A stretch of 37,637 bases of DNA from Candidatus Methanoperedens nitratireducens. Lineage in GTDB: Archaea; Halobacteriota; Methanosarcinia; Methanosarcinales; Methanoperedenaceae. Each line of letters begins with the position of its first letter. Positions within the stretch are counted from its first letter, which is position 1. Both the position numbers and the translations under genes were made by a program. Shown here piece by piece: positions 2,049 through 29,700 of the stretch. The notes under the pieces are model-generated. The model was not told where the DNA came from, did not search any database, and saw only the letters and a program-made list of their open reading frames with translations. The stretch is from assembly GCF_900196725.1 (NCBI RefSeq), contig NZ_FZMP01000168.1, forward strand, positions 1 through 37,637, given 5' to 3'.

Positions 2049-2076
2049 TCTATTTTGACGAATTAAGTTTGGCGTA

Positions 2077-5056: not shown

Positions 5057-5060
5057 AATT

Positions 5061-6008: not shown

Positions 6009-6009
6009 T

Positions 6010-7891: not shown

Positions 7892-8014
7892 AAACTCTTT
7901 AAATTAACTGTAAGTTTATAAATGTTTGGAGAGCAGAGTGAAACTATTTCTGCTGAGCCATCCGTCTTGCTTTAGCTAAATGGAAGGTGATATGAATGCA
8001 GTACCGATCAATAA

Positions 8015-8044
8015 ATCTGCGTTTATCTGCGTTCATCTGCGGTT
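8015..8044. repeat. three tandem 10-bp units (ATCTGCGTTT-like)
   Basis: ATCTGCGTTT, ATCTGCGTTC and ATCTGCGGTT follow one another directly. The stop codon of cas6 lies inside this block, so its last residues (NLTADERR) are encoded by it. Short ATCTGCGTT-type runs are, from general experience, a widespread kind of intergenic repeat, so the cas6 3' end may have been altered by repeat insertion. Confidence 0.6.
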
Positions 8045-11398: not shown

Positions 11399-12424
11399 AT
11401 GGAAATTGGAACACTGATAAAAGAATTAGAAAGGCAAAAAGAAACAAGCTTAGATCTGATTGTAGACAGCCGAAGTTTAAAAGCAGCACCGGATGGAGAG
11501 CATGTAGTAGAATTGGAAATACCAGATCATGGAAGATTTCCACTGACTGCCTGGGCACACTTACAGATGGCTGAGAAACTCGAGATACCGAAGAGATACT
11601 ATGACAGGATGATTACTGCTGGAAAGGCCGAACTTTTAGCAGATAACATCAATGCCTGGCTTGGAGAAAGAGATAGAAGGCTGGTAAGAGTCTTAGATAG
11701 GCAAATCAGAGCCATACTCTCAGACAGATACCGGATAATGGATAACTACGATCTGCTATACCTCTCAATGGAGGAGTTCAGGAAAAAAGAGACCGTGGAG
11801 ATTTACAAAGCTGAAGTTACAAAGACAATGCTTTATTTGAAGGCAATAGACAGGACTCTGACAGCAGAAATCACCAGAGGAGATATAATCTACGGCGGGT
11901 TAATTATCAGAAACTCGGAAGTGGGAGCATCAGCTTTCAGGGTTGAGACCTTCATCTTGAGGAAAATCTGTAGTAATGGCCTGATCGGAGAGCATTCGCT
12001 TAAAAAAGTTCATCTGGGGCATCAGACCTTGGAAATCGGAGAGATAGACTGGTCTGATGAAACAAGGGAACTTGAGGATAAGGCACTCTGGGCAAAGGCA
12101 AGAGATATTATCAGACTAACGTTTGACAACAGCATCTTTTCTTCCTGGGTTAAGAAGATGAGAGAAAGCACTGAGATTACAATTGAGAAGCCGACAAAGG
12201 CAGTAAATAACGTTGCAAGGCTTGCCAGCTTGAGTGAAGAGCAAAGAGATGATCTTCTCGCCTATTTCTCAGAGCACACAAAGTACGGATTAGTTAATGC
12301 AGTTACAAGCTTAGCCCGGGAGACAAAGAATGTGGATGAACAAATAAGGCTTGAGGGGTTTGGTGGAAAACTCTTGAATACGCCAGATAAGGAATTTGAA
12401 CAAATGGTTGTTCAAGAAGGCTAA
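11399..12424 (+). CDS. DUF932 (phage/plasmid-like) protein
   Basis: 341 aa, resembling the DUF932 family found on phages and plasmids. Recognisable parts are FPLTAWAHLQMAEKLEIPKRYYDRM near residue 50, then RAILSDRYRIMDNYDLL and GLIIRNSEVGASAFRVETF, followed by the ICSNGL segment. No biochemical function is established for the family to my knowledge. It has a strong Shine-Dalgarno 8 nt upstream within a foldable leader, and is followed after 3 nt by the next gene. It marks the block as plasmid- or virus-derived. Confidence 0.78.
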   Translation: MEIGTLIKELERQKETSLDLIVDSRSLKAAPDGEHVVELEIPDHGRFPLTAWAHLQMAEKLEIPKRYYDRMITAGKAELLADNINAWLGERDRRLVRVLDRQIRAILSDRYRIMDNYDLLYLSMEEFRKKETVEIYKAEVTKTMLYLKAIDRTLTAEITRGDIIYGGLIIRNSEVGASAFRVETFILRKICSNGLIGEHSLKKVHLGHQTLEIGEIDWSDETRELEDKALWAKARDIIRLTFDNSIFSSWVKKMRESTEITIEKPTKAVNNVARLASLSEEQRDDLLAYFSEHTKYGLVNAVTSLARETKNVDEQIRLEGFGGKLLNTPDKEFEQMVVQEG

Positions 12425-12427
12425 AAC

Positions 12428-12916
12428 ATGGAAAAGAAAATCGAAGACAGATTAGAGCTTTACAGCGAGATCTATCAGAAAGCCTTTGAAAAAGCCCTAA
12501 AAGTAAATCCTAACAATGCCAGATATATAGCCAGCGAGATATTCAAAGAGATAGCCCGGGACATGAGATCAGAACTCATTTCCAAGCTACAGAGAGAGAA
12601 TGGGAAAAACGCAGGAACAAAGGCAGAAGATTTAGTAGAAACAGAAGATAAGGGTAAAATAAACGGCAATGGAGATAAACCAAAGGAAGAAAACACCGAT
12701 CCAGCCACCGTAAAACAAAGGTACGCTTTGCATAAGTTCGGCATAGAAAACGTGCCTGAGAGTCTGACAAAAAAAGAAGCCTCTGAAATTTTAAACAGCC
12801 TGGTTTGCTTCTCAAGAGAAGGAAACAGAGAAGCGGTTAACGAGATAGTTGAGAGATTAAACGCCATAGACGAGTTGAAAACCAAAACAAACCAAACCTC
12901 TAAAATAGCTCTTTAA
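12428..12916 (+). CDS. charged accessory protein of the plasmid-like block
   Basis: 162 aa, strongly charged. An N-terminal helix (MEKKIEDRLELYSEIYQKAF) is followed by a low-complexity Lys/Glu/Asn linker (residues 60-90) and a C-terminal motif DPATVKQRYALHKFGIENVP with a following KKEASEILNSL. This motif type recurs in proteins of mobile elements and may bind nucleic acid, but I cannot assign a function. It is 3 nt from DUF932 and certainly co-transcribed. The hydrophobic minus-strand ORF here is a shadow. Confidence 0.72.
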   Translation: MEKKIEDRLELYSEIYQKAFEKALKVNPNNARYIASEIFKEIARDMRSELISKLQRENGKNAGTKAEDLVETEDKGKINGNGDKPKEENTDPATVKQRYALHKFGIENVPESLTKKEASEILNSLVCFSREGNREAVNEIVERLNAIDELKTKTNQTSKIAL

Positions 12917-12927
12917 AGTAAACAACG

Positions 12928-13032
12928 CCAAAGAAGCTTTTCCTCTTGCTAATTAGCAAGGGAGTATTACCTGAAGGAGGCAGTACTGTTCCGAATAATT
13001 CGGAATCAAAAGCTTCTTTGGTTATTTTTTTT
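12928..13032 (+). other. four-stem cloverleaf-like foldback followed by a U-tract
   Basis: An outer perfect 14-bp stem (12928-12941 with 13008-13021) encloses three hairpins in a tight junction. These are CTTGCT-AATT-AGCAAG (12945-12960), AGTATT/AGTACT (12963-12987, loop with GGAGG) and TTCCGAA-TAA-TTCGGAA (12989-13005). TTATTTTTTTT follows at 13022. It could be an elaborate terminator for the DUF932 operon, a structured RNA, or a DNA foldback (origin or recombination site). It has no tRNA features. Confidence 0.7.
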
Positions 13033-13045
13033 ACGCCCAGCTTTT

Positions 13046-14344
13046 ATGCCAAACATCAATTTTTTTGCAAAAACTGATTTCAGAGGTGAAGAGAAAGTCT
13101 TCGGAATAAAGAAGGAGGATAGGCGGCTCCACATTTATATCATTGGAAAGACAGGAATGGGAAAGACAACTCTTCTCTTAAATATGATTCTGAATGATAT
13201 TTACAGAAATGAGGGAGTATGTTTTATAGATCCGCACGGAGATGCTGTAGAAGCTCTTCTTGATTATATCCCTTCGCATCGAATTGATGATATTATCTAT
13301 TTCAACCCTGCTGATGTTGATTACCCAATCGCCTTAAATATTCTGGAAAATGTAGGACCTGAAAGGAAACATCTTGCAGTTTCAAGCCTTGTTTCAGTTT
13401 TTAGGAAATTATACGCTGAATACTGGCAGCACAGACAGGAACATATCCTGAGAAACACGATTTTGGCTTTGCTTGATGAAGAAAAAACTTTGTTTAACTA
13501 CAACAAAAGCAAAACCTTGCTTGACATATACAGAATGCTTTCAGATTGGAGGTATAGAAAGGAAATTACAGAAAAGGTAAAAGATCCAATCGTAAAATCA
13601 TTCTGGAAGAACGAGTTTCCAAAATACCTTTATCAATTCAAGGGAGAGGCTTTAGCGCCTATCCAGAACAAATTGGGAGCCTTTTTATCAGTTCCTTTAG
13701 TCAGGAACATTACCGGGCAGGTTGAAAACAAAGTGGATTTCAGAGGGCTGATGGACAAACAAAAAATCCTCCTTGTAAACTTGGCAAAGGGAAGGATTGG
13801 AGAAGATAATTCTTCTTTCCTTGGCTCTCTTATCATCACAAAACTACAGCTTGCAGCAATAGGCAGGATTGATATTACAGAGGAACAAAGAAAGGATTTT
13901 TACCTTTTTGTTGATGAGTTTCAAAATTTTGTTGCTACCGAAACTTTTGATGGTATTTTGTCAGAGGCAAGGAAATACAGGCTGTGCCTCTCTCTTGCCC
14001 ACCAGTATATTGGTCAATTGGACGAGAGATTGAGTAAGGCAATATTTGGGAATGTAGGGACTATCATAACATTTCCAATAGGAGCAGAAAATGGAGAATC
14101 CTTGGAGAAACACTTCTTTCCTGAATTTAATAGGCAAGACTTGATAAATCACGGCAAACACCATCTATATCTGACGCTTGCCATAGATGGTAAGACATCC
14201 CATCCCTTTTCTGCAATAACCTTGCCTCCTTTTTACAATTTTAAACCCCAAGGGAATAGGGAGAAAATAGTCATGGAGTCAAGATCAAAGTATGCAGGTA
14301 AAAGAAAAGAAATAGAGAGGGAAATTGAAAAACAGAGCTGTTAA
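13046..14344 (+). CDS. TraG/VirD4-like type IV secretion coupling ATPase
   Basis: 432 aa, membrane-segment-free coupling-protein type. Walker A is IIGKTGMGKTTLL (about residues 33-45), then FIDPHGD, and Walker B is FYLFVDEFQNF (about 289-299). The C-terminal TraM-recognition-like part reads EARKYRLCLSLAHQYIGQL and GNVGTIITFPIGAENGE. The family moves DNA through conjugation-like channels or acts in plasmid partition. The closest forms I recall come from Patescibacteria, and also archaeal plasmids. It ends overlapping the convergent nuclease gene by 4 nt. A second, truncated copy of its tail lies at 22530-22931. No clear Shine-Dalgarno precedes the ATG. Confidence 0.85.
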   Translation: MPNINFFAKTDFRGEEKVFGIKKEDRRLHIYIIGKTGMGKTTLLLNMILNDIYRNEGVCFIDPHGDAVEALLDYIPSHRIDDIIYFNPADVDYPIALNILENVGPERKHLAVSSLVSVFRKLYAEYWQHRQEHILRNTILALLDEEKTLFNYNKSKTLLDIYRMLSDWRYRKEITEKVKDPIVKSFWKNEFPKYLYQFKGEALAPIQNKLGAFLSVPLVRNITGQVENKVDFRGLMDKQKILLVNLAKGRIGEDNSSFLGSLIITKLQLAAIGRIDITEEQRKDFYLFVDEFQNFVATETFDGILSEARKYRLCLSLAHQYIGQLDERLSKAIFGNVGTIITFPIGAENGESLEKHFFPEFNRQDLINHGKHHLYLTLAIDGKTSHPFSAITLPPFYNFKPQGNREKIVMESRSKYAGKRKEIEREIEKQSC

Positions 14345-15333
14345 TTCTCCCTTAATTCAAAGTAATCTTTACCATCAAAATAGGCGGCACTGATCTTTTG
14401 TAAGGGAATACCGGTCCTTTTGCTCAAGGCGAGCTTATAAAGATAGATCTGATGAAGGGATTTTACAGGGTTGAATTTGGCGTCCGGCTTGTAGTCAAGA
14501 ATCCAGACCTTGTCCCAGCGGATTTGCAGAAAATCGATGTGGCCACAGATCGGTTCCTTTATGCCAAGTTCTGGAACTTCGTTGGGATAAAGATAAACCG
14601 GAACTTCTACTGCCACTGTAGCGGTATCGTTCTTCAGCATAAAATCTTGGATTGTAGGGTGCCTATCTTTGTTTCGTTTTGCCAGGAGCAGGGCAAGCCT
14701 TGCCAGTAAGACCGCGTTATTATCTTTCGTTCGCTCTCTTCTGAGGTGGACGTTTTCTATTATTGTGCTAGAACACCTTTGCCCGTTTTCAAAGATTTCA
14801 TCTGGACAGCTTTTACAAATCTGCCAGAGGTACTTTCTGATTTCCGGGAGCTTTTTTGAGAAGATGTTCAGCTTTAAGCGGTGGAATTTAAAAGCGTACT
14901 CCTGATGATGCTTGAAAACTTTTTCTGTTATTACTTCTTCCGGTGAAAAAGAGAGCTTTCGGCGGTATTTGGTAAAAGTACAGATATTCTCGTACTGTTT
15001 TATCCAGGAATGAAGAGTGCCTTTGGGAACCTGTTGTTTAAATTGGCTGTTTAACTTTTTACGGGTGGCATCGAGTTTATAACCGAGATTATAATAAGTG
15101 ATGCCATTAAGAATAACTTTGGGAGAATAGGTTTTATGAGGCATAGGAGAGGATGAAAAATATTTCTTGCAGGTTTTACAGTAATATTTTTGCACTGTCT
15201 CCTCTCGCTTTATCCTCTGGCCGGCTTTGGCGGTGTTTTGGCTCTCGCAGAAAGGGCAAGGGGTTTTGGGTTCAAAATTGAGGAGCTTTAGCGCTTGGTT
15301 TTTAGTTTGATTTTCGTCTGTTTTTGGGGTCAT
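14341..15333 (-). CDS. zinc-ribbon/HTH transposase-like domain fused to a PD-(D/E)XK nuclease
   Basis: 330 aa. Residues 27-65 form a CPFC...YYCKTCKKYF zinc ribbon like the DNA-binding end of IS1/IS1595-type transposases. A helix-turn-helix region follows (about 70-115, GTLHSWIKQYENI). No DDE domain follows; instead residues 240-325 hold a nuclease core: GHIDFL (Asp), WILDYKP (D-x-K) and HQIYLYKLAL (motif with Gln and Tyr). All expected catalytic residues appear present. The gene converges tail-to-tail with the TraG-like gene (4-nt overlap). A decayed copy of the first 40 residues lies at 21240-21373. The role is unknown; an element-encoded site-directed nuclease is plausible. Confidence 0.75.
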   Translation of the reverse strand: MTPKTDENQTKNQALKLLNFEPKTPCPFCESQNTAKAGQRIKREETVQKYYCKTCKKYFSSSPMPHKTYSPKVILNGITYYNLGYKLDATRKKLNSQFKQQVPKGTLHSWIKQYENICTFTKYRRKLSFSPEEVITEKVFKHHQEYAFKFHRLKLNIFSKKLPEIRKYLWQICKSCPDEIFENGQRCSSTIIENVHLRRERTKDNNAVLLARLALLLAKRNKDRHPTIQDFMLKNDTATVAVEVPVYLYPNEVPELGIKEPICGHIDFLQIRWDKVWILDYKPDAKFNPVKSLHQIYLYKLALSKRTGIPLQKISAAYFDGKDYFELREN

Positions 15334-15518
15334 ATTTGGTTCGAATGAGATGACGGATTTCGTACATTTTGATAGGTTACCTGACGCAAATTGGACAAAA
15401 GTAAAGACTCCAGAGATAGGATAGAAGGGGAGTCTTTGTTAAGCATTAAGCTTATAATACCAGGTTTTTTAGAGTTGTTCAAGTTTCGTCTGGTGGATTA
15501 GGTTCGAAATTCGTCTGG
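15313..15518. repeat. cluster of TTCGTCTGG motifs upstream of the nuclease gene
   Basis: TTCGTCTG(G/T) occurs at 15313, 15485 and 15510 here, at 17451 and 17477, and again at 21353 and 21536 beside the second nuclease remnant. A variant, TTCGTCAGG, is at 21512. The noncoding stretch 15334-15598 holds otherwise only the flank shared with 21374-21545. The clustering beside both nuclease copies suggests binding or end sites of the same element. Confidence 0.55.
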
Positions 15519-15598
15519 TGGTTGGGTTATGTTATTGCAAGAAAAAACCTCCTCTGAGTTGAGGTTATTAAAAAGAGACTTGAGAATAGGATGAAATC

Positions 15599-15719
15599 CT
15601 ATCTTGCTCTAACTTTGGATTCGAGGGCGGCGACGCGTTTTTCGAGGACTGCGAATTCCTCGATATCAACCTTCCGCTTGAGGGAGTTTTTGATGAACTC
15701 CATACCGGTTTTCATTATC
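15599..15719 (-). pseudogene. C-terminal piece of a split coiled-coil gene (copy A)
   Basis: The minus strand encodes MEFIKNSLKRKVDIEEFAVL and on to ESKVRAR stop, nearly identical to the C-terminus of the full-length copy at 21966-22275. Its N-terminal half is at 16528-16749, so an 830-bp segment (15720-16550) now separates the halves. Confidence 0.75.
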
Positions 15720-15926
15720 TAAAATATATAATAGAAACGTAACCTGTGGTTTAACACTTGAAATTATCTCAGCAACACGCATTGTAATTTTTTCTTCCAA
15801 CGAGAAAGAAAATTTAACATTTGTCAAGCGTTAAATTTATATTTCTATTTAATACTCAATATTTAATAAACATATAAATTCACAAGGTTGTTCGTTCGGT
15901 ATAACGGCCTCCTAGATCTCATGATC

Positions 15927-16499
15927 CTACTTATCGCATATGATATTAGAAATCCATGCACTTTCTCTATCCAATTCCAATTCAGTACCAAAACCGAGTT
16001 CTTGCCGTATCAGGTTTCTGAATTCATTAAGTAAGTCAGTATATGGTTTAGAGTCTACGTGTCCCGTTAAGATCTCTGAAAACTTTTTTAGAATTAAAGT
16101 ATTTTCGCATGATAGTATCAGCTTGCTATGGCAGGCTCTGGCACGTTCTGTTGTAAAGATTTGTTGCTTGAGCGATTCTACTTTAGGACTTTTCAAAATA
16201 CATGAAAAATATGCATCGATTAGTTCTAATGCTTCCAAACACGCCTCATGTTTCAGCTTATATTTCATTTGTTGAACCGACAATCCGAGAGCAATATCTG
16301 CTTTTACACTTTCAACCTTTCTAGTAATCTCTTCGATATCTTGTTTCGTAGCCAAATTCTTTCCCTTTTCCTCAAAATATTTCGGATAATAATACCGAAG
16401 ATAATATACTATTATTAATAGTGCGATGACCGGAATGATGGCGATAACAGTATAGATAATATTTGCTAATGACATATCTATTTCTACCATGTTATACAC
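15927..16499 (-). CDS. single-pass membrane protein of unknown function
   Basis: 190 aa; the start may be the second Met (MSLANII, 16475). One N-terminal transmembrane helix (IIYTVIAIIPVIALLIIVYYL) is followed by YYPKYFEEKGKNLATKQDIEEITRKVE, a phrase common in a widespread bacterial/archaeal family of unknown function, then a helical cytosolic domain. The gene lies entirely inside the segment that splits the coiled-coil gene, so it probably arrived with it. No transposase or integrase accompanies it. Confidence 0.65.
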   Translation of the reverse strand: MYNMVEIDMSLANIIYTVIAIIPVIALLIIVYYLRYYYPKYFEEKGKNLATKQDIEEITRKVESVKADIALGLSVQQMKYKLKHEACLEALELIDAYFSCILKSPKVESLKQQIFTTERARACHSKLILSCENTLILKKFSEILTGHVDSKPYTDLLNEFRNLIRQELGFGTELELDRESAWISNIICDK

Positions 16500-16527
16500 C
16501 TATGTAGTTTTGTTAGTGCTTGTAACC

Positions 16528-16749
16528 TTATAATTCTGCCGAACTTATTGTTTTTATTATCCCAATATCTTCTTTCATTGAACCTATCACTTCTGTATGG
16601 GAGTCCAGGGTCTCTTTGATCGAGCTATATTGCTCGCCAATGATCTTGACTTGGGAGTGACTATCTTCGGCCAGGGTGCTGACATGCCTTTTAAAATCAT
16701 CGCTTTGCTCTATTAATATTTGTTTTAGTTTTTTGTCGTTGATTTCCAT
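16528..16749 (-). pseudogene. N-terminal piece of a split coiled-coil gene (copy A)
   Basis: 73 aa, heptad-rich, starting MEINDKKLKQILIEQSDDF. It matches the copy at 21966-22275 as far as KEDIGIIKT, then ends in six unrelated residues. The intact family member would be about 103 aa and entirely coiled coil. It may still be translated as a shortened product. Confidence 0.7.
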
Positions 16750-16786
16750 GGATTTGTTTTAAAAAGTGAGTTAAGTCTGCTAAGGT

Positions 16787-16822
16787 GGTTTCATTATAAG
16801 ATAGAAGAAATGCAATGGCAAA
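16787..16822. repeat. dispersed 35-bp repeat (ATTATAAGATAG...ATGGCAA), copy 1
   Basis: TTCATTATAAGATAG with AATGCAATGGCAA follows. Related copies occur at about 17491-17527 and 22307-22345, each next to a module boundary. It is a flank of the coiled-coil gene in two of the three places. Confidence 0.6.
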
Positions 16823-16859
16823 GGAGGGGGATGGAAACAACCTTTTTCAAATGTGAGAA

Positions 16860-17662: not shown

Positions 17663-18292
17663 ATGACTATTATCGAGAAATATAAAACATATAGAAATAT
17701 TGCAAAAGAACTAAATCATAAAATAATGAATACATGCCTTGATCAGGATGTATTGAAAAAATCAGCAAGGTTACTCGGCATTGCCCGAGGAGAAATTTTA
17801 GTGTTTGAGAGTGAGAATGATACGAGCGTTTTGATGGATTTTGCCCTGTACGATTATAGGGCGAATAAGCAAAACGCCATTGAGATTTATCGGGAGAAAA
17901 TTGGCTGGCAAAATGAGATTGAAAAAGAGATATTAGATGCTTATATCTCATCGTATACGTCCTTATTCAAAGTTATATCGATTTCAGAAGCTGAAAATTC
18001 TTTGATTTTGAGTGACCTTTTAAATAAGAAGGATAACATAAAACTAATAGACATTGCGTTAAGCATAACGGCTGTCCCTGGATTACTGGTGTTTATCAGG
18101 CTTATCCCATTTAAAGATTTTAATATGGCTGCTGGATCATCATTCGCTTTTCCTAGCAACTCAGAAAATTATCTTCTTAGAAGATACAAAATACTAAGCA
18201 GAAAGGTTAAATCAGGCAGTGACTCCATAAAACGGTTTGTTTCTTTCTATAAATTAAGTAAAACTCAGGGCATTGAGGTAAGATATTTGTAG
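17663..18292 (+). CDS. conserved-looking protein of unknown function upstream of the nuclease-transposase fusion
   Basis: 209 aa, soluble and helical, opening MTIIEKYKTYRNIAKELNHK; I do not recognise a defined domain. The central part (VLMDFALYDYRANKQNAIEIY) is acidic/aromatic and there is one moderately hydrophobic stretch near residues 130-145. It ends 115 bp before the 926-aa fusion on the same strand. The archaeal-type promoter between them suggests separate transcription, though they could belong to one element. Confidence 0.6.
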   Translation: MTIIEKYKTYRNIAKELNHKIMNTCLDQDVLKKSARLLGIARGEILVFESENDTSVLMDFALYDYRANKQNAIEIYREKIGWQNEIEKEILDAYISSYTSLFKVISISEAENSLILSDLLNKKDNIKLIDIALSITAVPGLLVFIRLIPFKDFNMAAGSSFAFPSNSENYLLRRYKILSRKVKSGSDSIKRFVSFYKLSKTQGIEVRYL

Positions 18293-18357
18293 AGGGTTTT
18301 ATCCAGATGGCATATCCGGCTTTACGCCTTGTGCAGTGGAATTCCCGCGTTAAGGAA

Positions 18358-18365
18358 TTTAAATA
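18358..18365 (+). promoter_or_regulatory. archaeal TATA box (TTTAAATA) of the fusion gene
   Basis: TTTAAATA preceded by AAGGA lies 42-49 bp upstream of the ATG at 18407, giving a predicted start site near 18387. This favours the ATG at 18407 over the upstream in-frame start. Confidence 0.4.
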
Positions 18366-18406
18366 CTCCTTATGCGCAACTCTCAGAAGCGATAGCGAAA
18401 AGAGAA

Positions 18407-21187
18407 ATGATCATAATGAAGAACATTATCACTTCTGAAATTGTAGTGGCATATTCTCATTGTTCTCGGAAGGCATTCCTTCTCCTTTTCAGTAACGAGA
18501 AGAAGGAACCTCATGAATACGTGTGCCTTCTTGAAAAACAGGCGAGCATTAATCAGGCTAAATATCTAAATGCCCTCAAACAAGATAATATTTCCTTGAG
18601 TCGCTATGACCCTGATAATATCGACAGCAGTAGTGATTTTCTTATCGAAGCAACACTCAAGGCTCATGATTTAGAGGCTTATTGCGATGTCCTAGCGAAA
18701 GTGCGAGGTAGCTCATTCTTCGGCAAACACAGTTATGAACCAACGATTGTTGTTGGAACGCAAAGTATTACGGAAGAGCTGAAAATCAAATTAGCGTTTG
18801 TGGGCTTTGTTCTTGGAGACGTGCAGAAAACGCTCCCTATATCTGGATCCATCGTTGGAACAGAAATGAAAACTCATAAAGTAAAACTGAATAATATTTA
18901 CAAGAAACTCAGACCCATGATCCAAACTCTGAAAGAATGGATAACAACATCCCCCTCGGAATCATCTCAGGTTATTTTGAACAGACACTGCCCATACTGC
19001 CAATTTCAGAAAGAGTGTACGGAGAAGGCAGAAAAGAATGATGACCTTAGCCTACTAAGTAAGATGACTCCAAAGATTATTCGTCGGTACCACAAGAAAG
19101 GCATCTTCACAGTTAACCAGCTCTCCTATTCGTTTAAGCTAAGAAGAAAACGGAAGCGAAAGAAAGAGATGCCTGTGCGTTTTAATCTAGAACTGCAAGC
19201 TTTGGCAATAAAGACTGGAAAGATATACATCCAGGAACTTCCAGAATTGCATAGACATAAGGTCGAGCTATTTTTAGATATAGAGGGCATACCAGATCAA
19301 AATTTTTACTACCTGATAGGTCTGCTAGTGTGCGAAAGTGATAACAGAGTCTATCATTCCTTTTGGGCAGATACTATCCAAGACGAAGAACGAATTTGGA
19401 GTGAACTTATCGAAAGGATAAACAAATATCCTGAAGCTCCCATTTATCATTACGGCAGTTATGAACCAAGAGCTATTGATAGGCTGACAAAAAGATATCA
19501 GACAAATTGTGATGGGTTTAAGAAGCGCTTGATCAATGTCAATTCGTATATCCACGGAAAGGTGTATTTTCCAGTAAGGTCTAACAATCTGAAGGACTTG
19601 GGTAAGTTCATAGGAGCATCATGGACTTCTCTTGATGCTTCTGGGTTACAAAGTCTTGTATGGCGACATCGCTTGGAAGAAAATCAAAACAGTGATTACA
19701 AGCAAATGCTGGTTACGTACAATGAAGAAGACTGCCGAGCTTTATGGTTATTGACCGAACGACTTTCAGAAATTAGTGAAACTGCTGATTCACAGGCGAA
19801 TATTGATTTTGCTGATCAGCCAAAACAGAACACAACAGAAAGAGGCGGTGAAATACATAGAAAATTTGAGGAGATACTGAGAAATGCACACGCTGATTAC
19901 AATAGGAACCGGATAAGCATTCAACCAAAAAGAAGCATGGAAAGTACTAAAAACAAAAAGCGTGGTGCACAGAAAGGTCACCAGGGGTATAAAAGAATAA
20001 TCCCTTCAAGCACAGGAAAAGTAATTCGAGTACCAATGCGAAGAAAATGTCCCATCCATAAAGGTGTCCCTCTTCACAGATCTGAAGAAACGGCTAAAAA
20101 AATCATTATTGATCTCCACTTTACAAAGAATGGGTACAGAAAAACTGTTACAGAGTACGTGGGCACTAACGGCTACTGCAAAAGGTGTGGCAAATACTAT
20201 ACTCCACATGGTATCCAGAAACTTAGTCGTCAGTTGTTTGGGTATTACTTTCAAGGATGGGTAATCTATCAGAGAATAATCCTTCGTCTACCATATCGGG
20301 TAATTAATCAAGTTACGGAAGACATATTTGGTGAAAGAATGAGTGAAGGTACCATCCTAAGCTTCATTAGCCATTTTGCTCAGTTCTATATTGTTACCGA
20401 TAACATTCTAATTCGGCGCATTCTTGAAAGCCCATTCATTCATGTCGATGAGACACGACTTAATATTCAAGGCACTGATTACTATGTATGGGTATTCACG
20501 GATGGGAAGCATGTAGTCTTCAGGATGACTGAAACAAGAGAGACAACCATAGTGCAGGAATTTATGTCAAACTATGAAGGAATACTGATATCCGATTTCT
20601 ACCCTGGTTATGACTCAGTACCGTGCAGGCAACAAAAATGCTGGGTTCATCTAATCCGAGATATCAACAATGATCTCTGGAGTGCACCGTTCGACACTGA
20701 ATTCGAATCGTTCGTTTTTGAGGTTAAGAACCTTATTATACCCATTTTTGAAGCAGTCGATAAGTATGGATTAAAGAAGAGACATTTAAACATGTTCAAG
20801 AAGTCCGTAGAGCAGTTCTACAAGGAGAATATTGTTGATATGGATTACAGGTCCGAAGTAACAATCAAGTATCAAAAACGTTTTCAACGCTATAAAGATA
20901 GCCTATTCATGTTTCTCGAACAAGACTCTATACCGTGGAACAATAATATGGCTGAAAGGGCTATTAGACATCTCGCCATACAAAGGAAAATATCAGGGAC
21001 ATTCTTCAAAGATACTGCTCCTCAATACCTGCTGCTGCTTGGCATTGCACAAACCTGCAGATTCCAAGACAAATCGTTTCTTAAATTCCTCATATCTAAA
21101 AAGATAGATATCGACAAATTTAGATCCACCAAACGAATAAACATCTCAACGCCCGTTATATCACCGAGAGATAATGAGGTACAATGA
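18407..21187 (+). CDS. fusion: RecB/TM0106-like module + DnaQ-like exonuclease + IS66 transposase
   Basis: A single 926-aa ORF (from the ATG at 18407). Residues 1-230: TM0106-type RecB-like module with N-terminal SHCSRKAFL and a CPYCQFQKEC cluster (about 195-204), four Cys for a possible Fe-S site. The catalytic Lys I expect after VVGT is absent (VVGTQS), so nuclease activity here is doubtful. Residues 280-450: RNase H/DnaQ-like exonuclease with LFLDIEGIP and YNEEDCRAL (DEDD-type acids). Residues 520-910: IS66 TnpC with RGAQKGHQGY, a C-x-C zinc region, and DDE residues in HVDETR, LISDFYPGYD and NNMAERAIR. The usual IS66 leucine-zipper head is replaced by the nuclease module. No TnpA/TnpB partner or clear terminal repeats are seen. 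Confidence 0.85.
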   Translation: MIIMKNIITSEIVVAYSHCSRKAFLLLFSNEKKEPHEYVCLLEKQASINQAKYLNALKQDNISLSRYDPDNIDSSSDFLIEATLKAHDLEAYCDVLAKVRGSSFFGKHSYEPTIVVGTQSITEELKIKLAFVGFVLGDVQKTLPISGSIVGTEMKTHKVKLNNIYKKLRPMIQTLKEWITTSPSESSQVILNRHCPYCQFQKECTEKAEKNDDLSLLSKMTPKIIRRYHKKGIFTVNQLSYSFKLRRKRKRKKEMPVRFNLELQALAIKTGKIYIQELPELHRHKVELFLDIEGIPDQNFYYLIGLLVCESDNRVYHSFWADTIQDEERIWSELIERINKYPEAPIYHYGSYEPRAIDRLTKRYQTNCDGFKKRLINVNSYIHGKVYFPVRSNNLKDLGKFIGASWTSLDASGLQSLVWRHRLEENQNSDYKQMLVTYNEEDCRALWLLTERLSEISETADSQANIDFADQPKQNTTERGGEIHRKFEEILRNAHADYNRNRISIQPKRSMESTKNKKRGAQKGHQGYKRIIPSSTGKVIRVPMRRKCPIHKGVPLHRSEETAKKIIIDLHFTKNGYRKTVTEYVGTNGYCKRCGKYYTPHGIQKLSRQLFGYYFQGWVIYQRIILRLPYRVINQVTEDIFGERMSEGTILSFISHFAQFYIVTDNILIRRILESPFIHVDETRLNIQGTDYYVWVFTDGKHVVFRMTETRETTIVQEFMSNYEGILISDFYPGYDSVPCRQQKCWVHLIRDINNDLWSAPFDTEFESFVFEVKNLIIPIFEAVDKYGLKKRHLNMFKKSVEQFYKENIVDMDYRSEVTIKYQKRFQRYKDSLFMFLEQDSIPWNNNMAERAIRHLAIQRKISGTFFKDTAPQYLLLLGIAQTCRFQDKSFLKFLISKKIDIDKFRSTKRINISTPVISPRDNEVQ

Positions 21188-21239
21188 TAGCTCTCCTTAC
21201 ACGAAACTGAACGTTTAGCAAGAATATTTTTACTCTCTC

Positions 21240-21373
21240 CCCTCTCGCTTTGTCCGTTGTCCTGCTTTGGCTGTATTTTGGCCCTCGCAGAAAGGGCAAG
21301 GGGTTTTGGGTTCGTAATTTAGGAGCTTTAGCGCTTGATTTTTAGTTCGATTTTCGTCTGGTTTTGGGGTCAT
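21240..21373 (-). pseudogene. 5' remnant of the zinc-ribbon nuclease gene (copy B)
   Basis: The minus strand encodes MTPKPDENRTKNQALKLLNY, then CPFCEGQNTAKAGQR, closely matching the first 43 residues of the gene at 14341-15333, and then diverges at about 21240. The upstream flank (21374-21545) also matches that of copy A. The break lies 50 bp past the IS66-fusion stop codon, so arrival of that gene or a recombination next to it removed the rest. Confidence 0.8.
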
Positions 21374-21658
21374 ATTTGGTTTGAATTAACTGACGGATTT
21401 CGTACGCTTTGGGAGGTTAGCAGACGCAGATTGAACAAGAGCGAGAGCCTTGAAGAGTTGCTTTTCGCTTAAACAATCGCTTATTGGCAAAGTTTTTTGG
21501 ATGTTCTATCTTCGTCAGGTAGATTAGGTTTGAAATTCGTCTGGTAAGTGGATTTTTTCCTTACGAGGGATGGATTCTCATGTTAAAACACGAAGCGCGG
21601 CGTAATCCTTTTATAGACTGAATATTAATGATAATTATGTTAAAGTCTAATGGGAGTT

Positions 21659-21677
21659 ATATCCCAGTTTGGGATAT
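21659..21677 (+). promoter_or_regulatory. inverted repeat upstream of chaB-like gene
   Basis: ATATCCCA-GTT-TGGGATAT is a perfect 8-bp inverted repeat 41 bp before the ChaB-like start. It is a plausible operator site. Confidence 0.4.
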
Positions 21678-21717
21678 CAGAAGGCTTTAAACAAAAAGAT
21701 AATTGGGAGTGGAGCAA

Positions 21718-21960
21718 ATGCCATATTATAACAGTATAAAAGATTTACCTGAACGGGTCCGCGATAACCTGCCAGAGCATGCGCAGCACATATTCATTGA
21801 CGCGTTCAACAGTGCATGGGAGCAGTACAAAGAGCCGGAGAAAAGAAGAGGCGGCCCGAAACAATCGCACGAGGAAGTTGCGTTCAAGGTAGCATGGTCT
21901 GCAGTTGAAAAGGAGTATAAAAAGGATGAATCGGGAAAATGGGTGAAAAAATATGGTTAA
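21718..21960 (+). CDS. ChaB-domain protein
   Basis: 80 aa from the ATG at 21718, chosen over a TTG 15 nt upstream because GGAGTGGAG sits just before it. It has the ChaB domain (DLPERVRDNLPEHAQHIFID, then HEEVAFKVAWSAVEKEY), ending in KWVKKYG. ChaB was named as a putative cation-transport regulator in enterobacteria, but in archaea and viruses the domain is a small helical module of unknown role. It is an insertion in copy B compared with copy A, where the same flanks are only about 55 bp apart. Confidence 0.82.
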   Translation: MPYYNSIKDLPERVRDNLPEHAQHIFIDAFNSAWEQYKEPEKRRGGPKQSHEEVAFKVAWSAVEKEYKKDESGKWVKKYG

Positions 21961-21965
21961 GATTT

Positions 21966-22275
21966 TTATCTTGTTCTGACTTTGGATTCGAGGGCAGCGA
22001 CGCGTTTTTCGAGGACTGAGAACTCGTCAATGTCAACTTTTCTTTTGAGGGAGTTCTTGATGAATTCCATATCCGTTTTCATTATCCCGATGTCTTCTTT
22101 CATTGATCCTATCATTTCTGTATGGGAATCGAGAGTTTCTTTGATTGAGCTATATTGCTCGCCAATCAGCTTTACTTGGGAGTGAAAGTCTTCTGCCAGG
22201 GTGCTGACATGCCTTTTAAAGTCTTCACTTTGCTCTTTTAAAATTTGTTTGAGTTTTTTTATCGTTGAGTTCCAT
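21966..22275 (-). pseudogene. coiled-coil gene (copy B), full length but frameshifted
   Basis: The minus strand starts MELNDKK at 22275, then a T7 run (22254-22260; T6 in copy A) shifts the frame. In the shifted frame it continues EDFKRHVSTLAEDFHSQVK through to ESKVRTR stop at 21966. This gives a 103-aa heptad-rich protein without other domains. It shows what copy A looked like before it was split. The single-base difference may be a sequencing error. Confidence 0.7.
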
Positions 22276-22529
22276 GGTTTATTTTAAAATTGGTTAAAGC
22301 TGCGTGGTTGTTTCATTATAGGATAGCTGGGATGCAATGGCAAGGGATAAGACTTGATAAATAACAATAAACATCATCTATATCTTATGCTTGCCATACT
22401 CACAAAAGCTATATTGAGCTAACCACCAGCGTTATATATAGGCAGGTTGTTTGGTTTGCTTGTGGGCAGGCAAACTCTCATTTAAATATCCTTAAACATT
22501 TTTCCCATATCCCCCTGCCCACTGAGTTC
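22276..22529. other. intergenic junction segment in duplicated block B
   Basis: It contains the third dispersed-repeat copy (about 22307-22345), then AT-rich sequence with a TTTAAATA at about 22475. No gene is seen. Homology to the TraG-like gene begins near the right end of this stretch. Confidence 0.4.
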
Positions 22530-22931
22530 TGTTGCGATAAAACTGTTGGCATCTTATTAGAGGCAAGGAAATACAGGCTGTGCCTCTCCCTCGCCCACCA
22601 GTCTATTGGTCAGTTGGACGAAAGATTGAGTAAGGCAATATTTGGAAATGTAGGGACTATCATAACATTTCCAATAGGAGCGGAGAACGGAGAATCTTTA
22701 GAAAAACACTTCTATCCTGAATTTAATAGGCAAGACCTGATAAATCACGGCAAACACCACCTTTACCTGACGCTTGCTATAGATAGCAAGACATCCAATC
22801 CCTTCTCGGCCATAACCCTGCCTCCTTTTTACAACTTTAAGCCTCAAGGAAATGAGGAGAAGGTAATCGCGGCATCAAGATCAAAGTATGCAGGTAAGAG
22901 AAAAGAAATAGAGAGGGAAATTGAAGGGTAA
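22530..22931 (+). pseudogene. C-terminal fragment of the TraG-like ATPase (copy B)
   Basis: It encodes GILLEARKYRLCLSLAHQSI through to the KRKEIEREIEG end, about 93% identical by eye to the C-terminal third of the 13046-14344 product. The Walker A and B motifs are missing, so it cannot be an active ATPase. It retains the TraM-recognition-like end, and could be translated from the internal Met. It belongs to the second, rearranged copy of the block. Confidence 0.82.
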
Positions 22932-23401: not shown

Positions 23402-23734
23402 TTAATCTTTGCTATACGTAGAATGCATACCCCACCTTTTTTCCAGGTTCTCTTTAAACTCTTTTAGTTCTGCTTCGGAAATATCATAAAGAGAAGGGAT
23501 GTCAGTAGTTACATAATGCAATGCACCAGCCAGGCAATTTAAAATCACCTGTTTTTCTGTATCAGTTAATTTCTTATTATGATTCTGTAACAATTCATCT
23601 GTAAGCTTGTGTAGTTCAGTAGACGAATAACCAATCTGCCTTTGGGCTTCATCAGATTTTGGATAACCAGATCCGTCAATTAATGCTTGAATAGCCAGAT
23701 GCCGTTCGCGATTATCTAAAAAATCTTTGGTCAT
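23402..23734 (-). CDS. candidate immunity protein for the RHS toxin
   Basis: 110 aa, helical and acidic, with no signal peptide (MTKDFLDNRERHLAIQALID). Its ATG overlaps the RHS stop codon by 4 nt, the usual position of an immunity gene in polymorphic toxin operons. I do not recognise the family. Coupled translation would ensure that the antidote is made with the toxin. The role is inferred from position only. Confidence 0.65.
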   Translation of the reverse strand: MTKDFLDNRERHLAIQALIDGSGYPKSDEAQRQIGYSSTELHKLTDELLQNHNKKLTDTEKQVILNCLAGALHYVTTDIPSLYDISEAELKEFKENLEKRWGMHSTYSKD

Positions 23735-26700
23735 CTGCCACCTCCTTTCAACTGATCCATTTGCTTGGCAACTTCTGTCTGATAATACCTAAATCCCTCT
23801 TGCGGTTTAAATGCAGTAGGTGGACCTCCAGCTTTATTGTTTATAACGATAGTACCTAATCTATCATCCCAATATAAATCTTTGGTTGGACCGCTAAAGC
23901 TGGCCGAAGGCTTAGCTATTACATTACTCACATACTCTCTCCACTGGCCTTTATTCTGGAACAGTGTACCATATTCTTTGCCAAAAATACTGCCTATGCC
24001 AAGAACATGTTTTTCATAGCTACCATGTTTATCGATACTATTAACTAGAGTAAATATATTTCTTGCTACTGCCCCACTGGTTTTACCAGCCGCAGACATA
24101 ATTTTCCCTGCCGGTACTTCACCAGAAGTAATAGCTCCAATTGCTGCCATGCCGTAGTTACCTTTTTGTGCATCTTGCCCTGCTTGGATTAAACCGACTT
24201 GTCCGATAGGTGTAGTTAGAGACTGGAGAAAAGAAGTGATTTGCGGAGCATAGGTTACAAATGCCATAAATGCCGCTGCTGCCGCAATTTGGATGAAATT
24301 GCCATCGGGATCGCGAAATGCTAATGGGTTGTTTCTTCCGTAAGCGTAAGAGTTCAATAATTGAGGATCGGATAAGAGCTGTTGGGATTCAAGTTTAGTC
24401 AATTCTTTAAGTTTGACGCTATCTCCAACCGCCAAGTATGCCGGATCTTGCGAGATAAATCTCCCAGTTGATGCCTCATAGTATCTCGCATTCATATAAC
24501 TCAATCCTGTATCAGCATCGTATTCATGTCCAGCATATTTTCGTTGTTCTGAGAAAGTAGAAGCTTTTTCATCAAGTCGTATATCGCCATAGGGATAGTA
24601 ATCCATCAACTCTTCAACTGTTCCGGGGCCATTGGTAACTACATTTGAACCGGTAAGATGGTCAGCATGAACAAAATAGATTTGAGCGGCGGCGCCTGTA
24701 CCTTTGACCGTGGCAACAAGCTGATCTCTGGCAAATATCTGCTTGGTCGGCACCTCTCCGGTTATATTATAGTCTTTTGTAGGATAATAGGTAGTATCCG
24801 TGCCGTTGGAATATCCGATTCTCTGGCCGGAAACGTCGTAAATATAGCTGACGGTCATTGAACCGATCACTGATTGGGTTAATCTATTGTCATAGTTCCA
24901 GGTATTGGTTAGAGTGCCATCGGTTAATAAATTTCCATTATCGTCGTATGTGTAATTCGCGCTTCCAATACTGGTGACGGCATGAGGATTGGCTTTGCCT
25001 GTTTGGGAATAGGTATAGGCCACTCCATTTTTGGAAGTGATATTTCCGATGGCGTTGTAAGCGTAAGTTTCGGTATAGTTTTGTCCATTCACCGCTCCGG
25101 TAACAGTAGCGGAAAGCAAACGATTTAGAGAGTCGTAAGTATAATCAACTGTTTTTTTGGAGTTGGTAGCGGAATTATCGACAATTCTTGTAATATTGCC
25201 ATTGGCGTCATAAGTGTACGCTAAATCCTGCGCGTGAGCGCCGCCTGTTATAGTAGTAACTTTTGAACTTAGCCTATAGAGTTTAGTGGAATCGTAAGTA
25301 TTGGTGGTTGTAGTGCCGTTGGCATAGGTTTGAGAGGTGATTTTCTCAAGCGGAGAGTAGTTGAAGTTAGTTACGAGATCAGTAAAACCTGTTGCGCCGC
25401 TTGCTCCAGAAGGGTTGTTGTATAAAGCGGCAATATTGCTTGTAGTCAAAGCGGCGCTATAAATCCTCGCTTCGTCAAGCTTGCCGTCAAGATAGTTGCC
25501 GCTGCCCGGAGCAATGGCTCCCATTCTCAAAGGAGCAGTATTATCGTAAGTGACAGAACCTGTCCCGCCATAAGTTCCTGATACTTCTACTCCGTTGACG
25601 TAAAGGCTGATATTGTTGAGTCCTCGGATAACTGCGGCAATGTGGTACCAAGAGCCGGGAGCAACTACTCCGCCGCCAGAATCTTTGCCGGCAAGATTGG
25701 TTCCATCAGCATAAAATCCTCTGATTGCACCATTAGAAAGAATAATTAAGGCATAAGCCATTGTTTCCCAGCCAGTATCCCATTTGCTGATTACGGCAGT
25801 ATTAACATTTAAAGTATCAAGCTTCACCCAAGCACTCATGGTAATAGGAAGAGATGGGCTGAGAGAGGGAGAATCCGGAGCGATAATCTCATCATTGATC
25901 CCGTCAAGATCAAGAGCGTTGCCGGAGATTCCGGGAATATGATTGGCGTTAGTCATAGCGCCGGAGAGAGTTCCCGTATTGTTGTTCCCGCTGGAATCGC
26001 TGGCTGTGAGTCCGGTGGTTTCATCAAAGCTCCAACGGCTCAAGAGATTAGTGCTTGAAGGAAGGTTTGGGTCAGTGGTTTCTTTGGTTGAGATTTTTTC
26101 AAGCAAACCCGCAGAATTGTATTCGTATTTAACCTGAGAGTTATCTGGATTGGTGATTAAAGCCTGATTTCCTTGGCGGTCGTAAGTATATTGAGTAATA
26201 TAGTTTACCGAGCTGATGGTTTTAGTTTCTTTGGAAGTTAACCCGAGAGAATTGTATTCCTTTGCTTCGGTTGAAGCAGCATTAACAATGGAACAAATTC
26301 TTCCTTTGCCATTAACGCAAGTGTCGTAAGCGTAAGTTGCTTCTATGCCGGTTGCGCCGGTATAGTCTTCAGTGAGTTGCCGGTTAAGATCGTCATAGGT
26401 ATAGTTAATGGTCTGGACTTTGGGATCTTTTTGGGAAATTAAATTGCCGCTATTGTCGTAAGTATAAGTCCAGGTGCCAAAAGTAGTATCGGCTGAGGCG
26501 TGAAGATCTTGGGCGGTTAATCTTTGGCCCAAAGCATTGTAAGTGAAATTGCGGATATTTCCCAGAGCATCAGTGATTTTGGTAAGGTTGCCAACGCCAT
26601 CATAAGTATAGCTTGTGGTGAGCGTAGTCGAACCATGTTCATCGACTCGAATTAAATTACCATAAGCGTCTTTGTATAAATCTTTTTGAGTCCCTTTGGC

Positions 26701-29700
26701 ATCAGTTGTGGTAACTTTCCAATCGTCATAGGTGTTAGTAATTGTTCCAACGGCATTGGTTGTCTCGATTATTCGACCAAGCGGATCATAAGCATAAGTG
26801 GAGTAAAGCGTTGCGTCCGCCGTCGCTGAAGTTCTAGGTATACCAGTTGAAAAATACGGAAGCGATTCTTTTTGCAGTAGTCCCCTGTTATTGTAAACAA
26901 GATCTTTAACTGAGAAGTTATTAGCGTCTTCGGCTTCCTTTCTGGTTTGGATCAAACGGCCAAGACCATCAAAATAAGAATAAGAATCAACGCTGGTTGT
27001 GACATCCAGATAATCGGTTTTTTTAACGCTTACCGCATTAGCTGTGTCGGTGTAAACATAGACAGATTTCGTAACCCATACTCCAAGCGAAACTTGATCA
27101 GGTTGTTTTTCTCCAGTCACCCTGTCCAATCCATCGTAGATTGTTTGGAAGACAAAGCCATTGGGGTCAGTGGTTTGCTTGGGTTTTCCAGCTGAATAAT
27201 CATAAGTATATTGAGTTATCTGGCTCAAGGGATTGGTAACTGAAATGGGATAAAGATTATATGAATCATAAGCATAAGCGGTGATTTTACCTCTGGGATC
27301 AGTTGTTTGGGTTACCAAGCCGTAAGAGTTGTAAGATTTTTGGGTATTGATGTAATTCGTGCTGTCTTTCCAATTTTCTTCTTTGGTGAGATTGCCTTTG
27401 CCAACGCTGCCTAAAGCGAGATTATCGTAATAGTATCTTGATTCTTTGATTTTAGTAGCGCTTTGATTGGTTAAAGAGCTGGAAGAAGGCAAACCCAAAA
27501 CATTCAAACTAGAGTTTGAAGCGTATGTAATTGTTTCGGTTAGTTTGTCAGTACCAACATCGGTAAAGGTTCCATTATCAGATCCGGTTACTTCACCTAA
27601 TTGGATTTTTTGGGTAAGGTTGCCGTTAGTATTGTCGTAAGAGTAGGTTTCGGCTTTGTCTTTGTGGGTAGCGTTGCCATCATAGGTGAAATTGATCTTC
27701 TGGCTAAGTTTCACGAAATTCCTGTCATTACCCAAATCATAGTTTTCCCATTTGCTTATGGTTTTGGAATAGAGATTGCCTGAAATATCGTAATTTTCCG
27801 AACGATAGGGTTTGCCAATTTTTGAAGAGTGATCGCTGAACTCGCCTTGCGCGCTATTTGTGGCATCGCCTTGATGATAATAGGTTTTAGTAATATTGCC
27901 AGCCGCATCTGTTTTGGTGATTTTGGCAAACCCCGCGAATTTGCGGTCAAAGGCGGTGTTGTAGTAATACTTGCCGCCTTCATAAGAATAATTAGTAGTA
28001 GAAGTATTGCCAAAACTGTCGTTAGTGGCAATAGATTGGACGGTATCCATGATAAAAGGCAAGTTCGGATTGGAAAGAGTTGAGCCGGTTGAATACAAAG
28101 GCGTGGCCTTGTAGGCAATGTCTGTTTTGCCGCCTGTGGGGTAAGTGATTCTAGTAAGAAGATCGGATTTGGGGCCGTTATTCAGATAAACTTTTTTACT
28201 TTTAATAGGATAACAAACTGGATTAACCGAACCAAAACATATCGATGAAATATCCGTAGTCAAAGACCTAAGCATATCGGGCAAACCATCTCCATTAATA
28301 TCCGCAATCCTAACCGAAGGACTATAAGCACCTTGATCCCCTAGATAATAGAAAGCTAGAGGTATTGTTTGGCCGTTAAAGCTATAGGTAGTCCAACCTT
28401 TACCGTTGTTTAAATAAAGTTCGCCGTAATTTTGTTCTTGCCAGGTTCCGTCAGGTAATTGGATTGAACTACCGAACAAAGACCTCAACACGTCTGCTAA
28501 GCCATCTCCGTTAACATCTGCAATTCGCATTCCATTTGAATTAATGCTATAAGGATCGTAAAAAGGATGAGGATTGGAAAGAGAAGTTTCCTGCTCCCAA
28601 CCATTACCGCTATTCAGATAAACCTTATTAGCCGCAAGGTAATAGCAGGTTGGACTGGAACAAGGCGAACCAATATCAGTTGCAATGTACCTAAGCAGAT
28701 CCGGCAAATTATCCCCATTAATATCGGCGATTTGAACCGATTGGCTAATTCTGCCATCATCTTTATAGTAAAAAGCCATTGGTACAGGCCAAGAAGTACT
28801 TTGAGTCCAGCCATGGCCGTTATTAAGATAAACCTCTGAATTATTAGTCTCATACCAAACATCATTGCTTCCTTTTGTTGAATAAAGATACACGGATTTA
28901 ACTATATCAGCCAAACCGTCGCCATTGATATCCGAGATTTTAGACGCTTGAGTAATAACAACATTTCGTCCAGAAGAATCTGTTCCTCGAGAATAAAAAT
29001 CTACAGGTATACTCCATGAGGTATCAAGCGTCCAACCATGGCCGTTATTTATATAGACTTTTCTTGAAGCTGGAATATAGTAACAGTTGTAGCTATAATC
29101 GCCGTAACAAGCATCAGCCCCGCCTTCTATGGATCTCAATATATCCGCTAAACCATCGCCGTTAACATCAGCAATCTGAACCGAGGCTGCAAGCTTACTG
29201 TTTCTATAATATTGAAAAGCTACTGGTATAGTCCAAGAAGTGTCTTGGGTCCAGCCATGCCCATTATTAAGATAAACTTCTGATGAATTACTTTCCTGAT
29301 AAGTCCCGTCAGCTAATTTTGTTGACGAACGAAATGCAGATTTAAGCAAGTCTTGCAGACCATCCCCATTAACGTCCGCGATTTGAATTGATTGTGGGTA
29401 ATTACCATCGTTTCTGATATAAAAATCTACGGGTATTTGCCATGATGTATCTTCAGTCCAAGTCCTGTTGTTATCCCAGCTAACAAGCATCATTTTCTGA
29501 TAATCAAAACTTATTGCCGGAAGTATTGTAATGTTTCCACCGTCATCCTGTCCTGATTCTGTGATTGACCCGAGAAAGGATTGCGCTTTGTCAGTAGTTT
29601 TATAACCCAAAACATATTTCTTTACCCAATTCCCATTAACTTTCGTACGTATTTCATTGATCCGATAACTGGTAGTAACCGCGAATCCTGTTTTATATGA

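Follow-up and report, generated by a model that had tools for sequence, protein, structure and literature searches.

What does a protein do that joins a Cas4-like module, a PolB-type 3'-5' exonuclease and an IS66-type DDE transposase in one polypeptide, and how does its gene travel? The question is raised by a fusion gene in a stretch of 37,637 nucleotides from Candidatus Methanoperedens nitratireducens (contig NZ_FZMP01000168.1; the whole stretch is called the window). The component families are already known. The fusion is not an ordinary IS66 element; it spreads sparsely across very distant archaea and bacteria, with identities of up to 76% between phyla, and its gene appears to move almost alone, with no recognisable inverted repeats. 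We tentatively propose a horizontally spreading single-gene family, the product of which is a nuclease-assisted DDE recombinase similar to a "trimmer-integrase", a reading that we regard as quite possible rather than probable.

The frame that contains the gene (18329-21187, forward strand) is open throughout its 952 codons, with ATG 18407 or ATG 18416 as the probable start, and its homologues start at an equivalent MKNIITSE (Table 1). The window's genome has a single copy. A sequence-only reading of the window had described three modules in one uninterrupted frame, and profile searches of each third bear this out, with all three scores above cut-off: the TM0106 family (TIGR03491; residues 35-477, 262.7 bits against a cut-off of 97.45), RNase_H_2 (PF13482; residues 314-479, 93.9 bits against 22) and DDE_Tnp_IS66 (PF03050; residues 637-895, 115.8 bits against 23.1). 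The IS66 model NF033517 matches residues 548-921 with 178.9 bits by hmmscan, slightly below its cut-off of 180, and the same stretch with 181.2 bits, above it, in the genome search. All residues named in the sequence-only reading are present, comprising Cys45, Cys221, Cys224 and Cys230, D317 and E319 (LFLDIEG), Y464 and D468 (YNEEDC), and the catalytic D, D and E of an IS66-type DDE domain, D707 (HVDETR), D756 (SDFYPGYD) and E876 (MAERAIR). The predicted structure has a predicted local distance difference test (pLDDT) score of 85.1 and a predicted template-modelling (pTM) score of 0.56. Structural similarity search revealed that the N-terminal module has the Cas4 fold, its best match being Cas4 within a Cas4/Cas1/Cas2 complex, and that the transposase module resembles the ISCth4 transposase (PDB 6xgx; Foldseek E 6.4e-8). 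A second list of structural matches hardly covers and hardly tests the transposase module, because exonuclease matches fill it, and a profile search of PDB sequences with the window protein gave no match at E 0.1.

Alignment of the family revealed strict conservation in all three modules. The four cysteines, D317, E319, Y464, D468, the three zinc-ribbon-like cysteines and D707/D756/E876 do not vary in any of 25 aligned fusions, and a separate alignment has D317, E319, Y464 and D468 in 26 of 26. This second set leaves out duplicates from the same place and any fusion whose N-half is incomplete; its filter also removed the Bacteroidetes copy L040, which was checked afterwards (L numbers denote loci and G numbers genomes). 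At position 379, presumed to be the ExoII residue, 24 of the 26 have E and two have D, and position 403 is N in all 26 versus D in 64 of 64 stand-alone TM0106 proteins, a fusion-specific change. The four-cysteine set is likewise complete in 26 of 26 fusions, and its last three members occur in 64 of 64 stand-alone proteins. The PD-(D/E)XK lysine, which had appeared to be lost in the window (VVGTQS), is gone from every fusion aligned: none of the 26 fusions has D/E at position 140 or K at position 142, and both residues are also lost in all 25 fusions of the other alignment, L040 included. Stand-alone TM0106 proteins retain both residues in 22 of 66 cases, with many cyanobacterial ones also lacking them, and a rhizobial TM0106 protein reads YEVYDTKLAR where the fusions lost this centre. 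With its PD-(D/E)XK centre lost, the N-terminal module most probably acts as a scaffold, either DNA-binding or Fe-S, as initially suggested. The ratio of nonsynonymous to synonymous substitution rates (dN/dS) over seven pairs ranges from 0.09 to 0.34 in the three modules, with saturation in one exonuclease value, and from 0.16 to 0.83 in the linker; all three modules are under purifying selection.

Searches beyond the window showed how widely and how thinly the fusion is distributed. A scan of genome contigs, which took the best 80 matches and hence gives a lower bound, found at least 18 fusion-class loci (L024-L040, L042) in addition to the decayed acidobacterial copies L041 and L043; among the 18, the frame is broken in L029, L032 and L035 and cut by a contig end in L034 and L039, and L037 has the C-half only. 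Of 191 matching plasmid records, two (those of Calothrix PCC 7716 and Acaryochloris MBIC10699) contain 80% or more of the query at a single place. The alignment comprised 18 full-length frames without interruption, that of the window among them, with pairwise identities of 28-96% and hosts among archaea, Cyanobacteriota, Ignavibacteriota, Bacteroidota and Pseudomonadota. The 17 further frames, one of which (L028) has no located ATG, supply the independent genomes that the sequence-only reading had called for, and exclude a chance origin of the fusion frame. Identities of the window protein are 76% with an ANME-1 copy, 68% with one from Ignavibacteria and 56% with that on the Calothrix plasmid, and the same-genus genome G006 also carries the fusion. 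Sampling by lineage gave 5 of 185 genomes in the window's order (its own genome counted, and three of the five being fragments) and 9 of 291 in the order of a Nostoc genome (three of the nine known beforehand); of 294 genomes in the archaeal phylum sample, 2 have TIGR03491, both times within a fusion-length frame. The named cyanobacterial carriers are the two plasmids together with Dulcicalothrix PCC 7102 and Nostoc flagelliforme FACHB-838, and many other relatives are metagenome-assembled genomes (MAGs). Single queries confirmed no relative in viral contigs and found one partial IS66 match only in phages. A further long form was seen on rhizobial plasmids, where the TM0106 proteins L156 and L157 are annotated as coding sequences of ~1,100 residues, well beyond the nuclease pair.

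In a quick tree of the N-half, 26 fusions and one decayed copy split from 14 stand-alone TM0106 proteins (SH-aLRT 100), and in that of the C-half, 38 fusion-class C-halves split from 15 ordinary IS66 proteins (SH-aLRT 99), with long branches that leave the exact IS66 neighbour unsure. Because each half forms one group against its stand-alone relatives, the trees are consistent with one old fusion event as the simplest reading. The archaeal fusions cluster with the Ignavibacteria and CSMAG copies, apart from other archaeal IS66. No relative was seen with its halves in two intact genes of their own, an arrangement that, if shared by all, would have spoken against the sequence-only reading; the exceptions seen to the fused form are frameshifted copies and C-half-only truncations.

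The evidence for relocation comes from where the homology ends. Among oriented loci, 17 of 20 pairs have their right boundary no more than 60 nt from the stop codon, the exceptions being three pairs among L137, L138 and L145 that share 126-236 nt downstream. On the left, 15 of the 16 pairs that include both starts have a boundary no more than 120 nt from the start, the exception being L022/L038, which share 597 nt upstream, another open reading frame (ORF) included, and resume homology past a 730-nt downstream stretch. The compared pairs have members in common and so are not independent. Six pairs with 88-95% DNA identity (L024/L025, L028/L126, L109/L037, L003/L005, L138/L137 and, on the left side only, L024/L006) have no detectable homology farther than 134 nt outside the gene, given that L005 has just 96 nt upstream and L137 just 190 nt downstream. 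At the window locus, homology to the same-genus genome G014 stops at 18296, four bases past the stop codon of the upstream 209-residue gene; G014 then has 28 unmatched nucleotides, followed by a match to window positions 21338-21551, inside the repeat 3' of the fusion. Copies of this repeat start at 21208 or 21223, and together with the G014 boundary they would place the transferred unit from ~18297 to 21208-21223; the ANME-1 homology covers 18392-21216. In the search for empty sites, G395 was the sole genome of its genus. In the comparison of element ends that the sequence-only reading had in view, homology is mostly bounded by the gene, and inverted repeats and target duplications were not found.

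That reading had further taken the gene for an IS66 element with an added exonuclease, a description that the evidence does not support: IS66 ends, target duplications, a same-contig TnpB and near-identical copies were all not found. Scanning for inverted ends accompanied by an 8-bp duplication gave scores of 20.8-24.0 at 7 of 15 ordinary IS66 loci (shuffled maxima 11.2-14.4), whereas none of 37 fusion loci reached 20, the best being 19.0 in a T-rich stretch at L134. The 37 loci represent 32 distinct places, 27 of which have at least 500 bp on each side, and the contrast of 7/15 with 0/27 gives a Fisher p of 0.0002. Since 8 of the 15 controls were missed or unclear, the sensitivity is about half, weak ends are possible, and the result is strong only as a contrast. 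No convincing inverted-end pair emerged either when the fusion loci were searched within 700 bp for duplications of 3-10 bp, and classical IS66 ends were discarded after three separate searches. TnpB (PF05717), noted as absent in that reading, occurs in 3 of 30 genomes with a fusion or remnant, always on contigs other than that of the fusion; it is not universal in IS66, as the control ISAva2 has none annotated beside it. The missing N-terminal head (zipper/helix-turn-helix) is also real: the NF033517 match begins at residue 548, after the nuclease modules and linker, whereas six of the eight IS66 controls that align from the first C-half residue have 71-100 residues ahead of it (in the remaining two, which are possibly broken frames, the numbers are 37 and 13). 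IS66 elements commonly, though not by strict definition, have near-identical copies within a genome. No such fusions were found within a genome, and nine paralogue pairs in five genomes, a comparison that left out two further copies in G104, are 35-54% identical.

In shortened and mosaic copies the modules occur apart or appear to have been exchanged. The C-half-only copies L126, L037 and L164 have 95%, 88% and 83% DNA identity to L028, L109 and L139, respectively, are nearest to three different fusion clades, and start at the neighbouring codons 456, 457 and 459 (window numbering); in the 20 nt before those starts, identity drops from 19-20/20 to 6-10/20. The contig of L164 ends ~100 nt away from it. 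A fourth such copy, L005, starts at about residue 482. The C-half-only open frames are 472-494 residues long, and their dN/dS against full-length relatives is 0.18-0.26 (L126, L037, L005), a value that includes the time before truncation. L037, on a Pleurocapsa MAG contig (also L175), lies between codon ~57 of a hemN remnant on its 5' side (44.2 bits with TIGR00538, profile positions 2-49, against a cut-off of 324.95) and bchE on its 3' side; it is thus no clean insertion, and a deletion or a MAG join may be involved. In the paralogues L138 and L145, both on the 7.87-Mb contig of G395, identity in 40-residue bins is 79-95% over residues 30-230 and 16-68% thereafter, and DNA identity begins 86 nt before the start codon. 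The halves of L145 belong to different clades, and the Cas4-like module looks as if it had been swapped.

We propose that the Cas4-like module would grip a DNA end or junction without cutting it, the exonuclease would shorten the 3' strand until a usable 3'-OH is exposed, and this 3'-OH would be joined to target DNA by the DDE domain. The sequence-only reading had likewise suggested that the exonuclease could process donor ends or target DNA. DDE transposases normally need defined inverted ends; gripping, trimming and joining in one protein could make insertion possible without long inverted repeats, for a short unit that ends on the right at the stop codon. That this unit is moved by its own product may be the case, and is the least certain step. 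Several observations weigh against the proposal. The pTM leaves the arrangement of the modules open in the model. No fusion locus has inverted ends and an 8-bp duplication above the threshold, although several slightly exceed their own five simple shuffles (e.g. L134, 19.0; L147, 15.2; L040, 14.6; L033, 14.4), so that weak ends are possible; no terminal motif common to the clades is visible by eye. Recent within-genome transposition is not seen, there being no near-identical pair among the nine. L022/L038 and L138/L137/L145, with their longer shared flanks, are exceptions to the gene-bounded pattern, and the boundaries of pairs with 73-81% identity are weaker evidence, because flanks diverge faster than coding DNA. 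G014 does not offer a clean empty site, as its match misses the start of the repeat. Cyanobacterial copies often lie near ParA and integrase genes, and plasmid carriage with recombination could relocate the gene.

This last point leads to the strongest competitor, in which the protein is an exapted, immobile enzyme of defence or plasmid competition that cuts or degrades incoming DNA ends, with the DDE domain acting as a nuclease, and is carried as cargo by plasmids and integrative elements. We consider it rather unlikely, though it accommodates the missing IS ends, the diverged copies and the purifying selection. ParA-like genes recur at 8 of 39 loci and tyrosine-recombinase genes likewise at 8, some of them several kb off, and a Pfam search of 149 of 156 neighbours gave eight matches to Phage_integrase and six to AAA_31 (ParA type) among the best 25 of 181 families. 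The pattern of L138/L145, with a common Cas4-like module and a diverged remainder, is like specificity swapping, and the TM0106 relatives on rhizobial plasmids are long as well (~1,100 residues). Set against this, PADLOC gave nothing for the window protein, and for two relatives just Cas4 matches, of 18 and 35 bits; defence models match three SNF2-type neighbours, beyond which no recurrent defence kind appears among the best 25 of 259 families. Simple cargo transfer, moreover, would not predict homology stopping at the gene's ends. The evidence is undecided between the two accounts, and the frequency with which homology stops at the gene itself inclines us to the nuclease-assisted recombinase.

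A more far-reaching version of the nuclease-assisted recombinase seems improbable to us. It would make the protein a complete DNA-capture machine, a convergent counterpart of CRISPR adaptation in which Cas4-like end recognition, the exonuclease and the DDE domain insert ends without inverted repeats, and which mobilises itself as nested units, a long one from near the ATG and a short one from ~Tyr457, with a shared right end at the stop codon. Slightly more doubtful still is an ordinary IS66-type element with cryptic or degenerate ends and a nuclease part that is a passenger with no role in transposition. The retained DDE and zinc-ribbon cysteines agree with it, as do the C-half-only copies, in which the transposase half exists without the nuclease half, and an end scan that overlooked 8 of its 15 controls; it is opposed by the contrast in ends (7/15 versus 0/37), by the lack of near-identical copies and by exonuclease residues as invariant as the DDE triad. 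An assembly or binning artefact in the window and the metagenome bins, for which the short MAG contigs of several relatives (L024, L027, L034, L039) could be cited, is scarcely credible, as the named cyanobacterial records, plasmids included, refute it for the family, and the 17 further intact frames, together with flanks of the window copy that match other genomes of the same genus on both sides, speak against an assembly accident.

The fusion shares features with several known systems. IS66 TnpC (NF033517, PF03050) has the same zinc-ribbon-like cysteines, DDE triad and overall C-terminal module, whereas the fusion has nuclease modules in place of the head, and no terminal inverted repeats (TIRs), target-site duplications (TSDs), same-contig TnpB or near-identical copies were found for it. 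Tn7-type TnsA-TnsB also pairs a nuclease with a DDE transposase; TnsA is an active endonuclease, in contrast to the exonuclease and the Cas4-like module without catalytic residues of the fusion. An artificial TnsA-TnsB fusion is mentioned in PMC12326709. The TM0106 family (TIGR03491/COG2251) shares with the fusion the same two N-terminal modules, four cysteines and exonuclease residues, but the fusion lacks the PD-(D/E)XK residues and has an IS66 transposase appended. Excerpts of an account of COG2251 presume a 3'-5' exonuclease activity, report DUF83 and AAA repeats and, within those excerpts, mention no transposase fusion (PMC3985635). Cas4-Cas1-Cas2 and the Cas1-Cas2/DEDDh "trimmer-integrase", as described in PMC10284694, combine a Cas4-like and/or DnaQ-like exonuclease with an integrase, as the fusion does, although its integrase part is a DDE domain instead of Cas1 and its Cas4 catalytic residues are lost. 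Casposons resemble it in an integrase that is at times accompanied by cas4-like genes, and differ in having a Cas1 homologue, TIRs and TSDs according to PMC6614799; the fusion has an IS66 DDE domain as its integrase-like part, and neither TIRs nor TSDs were found for it. No description of a TM0106-IS66 fusion was found in the open-access papers searched, closed-access papers and preprints lying outside the search; members bear partial database names, "transposase IS66, putative" or "TM0106 family RecB-like putative nuclease".

Table 1. Features of the window, with the fusion gene and its parts first.
Feature	Position (nt)	Strand	Remarks
Fusion gene (Cas4-like module, PolB-type 3'-5' exonuclease, IS66-type DDE transposase)	18407..21187	+	926 aa counted from ATG 18407
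N-terminal Cas4-like module, aa 30-235	18416..19033	+	Cys45, Cys221, Cys224, Cys230 present; PD-(D/E)XK positions 140, 142 lost
RNase_H_2 / DEDDy-type 3'-5' exonuclease, aa 314-479	19268..19765	+	D317, E319, E379, Y464, D468
Codons 456-459	19694..19705	+	Beginning of three separate C-half-only copies elsewhere; codon positions by eye from junctions
Linker, aa 480-547	19766..19969	+	Predicted disorder over aa 524-556
IS66-type transposase module, aa 548-921	19970..21091	+	Zinc-ribbon-like C574, C617, C620
DDE triad codons	D707 20447-20449; D756 20594-20596; E876 20954-20956	+	Within IS66-type module
Inferred transferred unit	18297..21223	+	Gene, ~110 nt upstream, 20-35 nt downstream; right edge between 21208 and 21223
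209-aa ORF	17663-18292	+	No convincing Pfam family
Type I-B CRISPR-cas genes	227-8715	-	PADLOC: Cas1, Cas4, Cas3, Cas7, Cas8b, Cas6
Dispersed, partly colinear repeats	13948-16825 and 21208-22925		67-90% identical; between accessory genes
DUF932-like (below cut-off) and TrwB/TraG-like coupling genes	11399-14344	+	
2319-aa RHS-repeat protein	23731-30690	-	FG-GAP, SpvB-like, lectin-type domains

Two neighbouring genes were considered as partners and rejected. The upstream 209-residue ORF, a candidate obligate partner, occurs in 3 of 30 genomes and near a fusion only in the window and G142; in G395 its homologue lies ~0.8 Mb from the nearer fusion. Its product has homologues in two cyanobacterial genomes, at 40-44% identity, and among plasmid proteins of the haloarchaeon Natribaculum, at ~36%, and it represents another cross-domain gene. 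A 179-residue ORF upstream of L022/L038 is common to that pair alone among 39 loci. The window's cas operon, ~9.7 kb from the fusion, has its own cas4, the fusion at this locus lying outside the operon, and Tandem Repeats Finder detected no CRISPR array in the window. The dispersed repeats of the window are also present in other Methanoperedens genomes, e.g. G005, G014, G008 and G017, and the DUF932-like and coupling genes suggest an integrated conjugative-type element adjoining the fusion. G395 has ~40 near-identical copies (98-99%) of a ~849-bp stretch that adjoins L158, apparently a very active unrelated repeat or insertion sequence.

Altogether, a DDE domain is coupled in one conserved family with a Cas4-like module and an exonuclease of the proofreading type, and the gene appears to relocate nearly bare between archaea and bacteria. 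If the proposed mechanism is true, it would represent a new way of preparing DNA ends for integration, parallel to the trimming that precedes insertion in CRISPR systems, and the TM0106 "putative nuclease" family gains a testable functional context.

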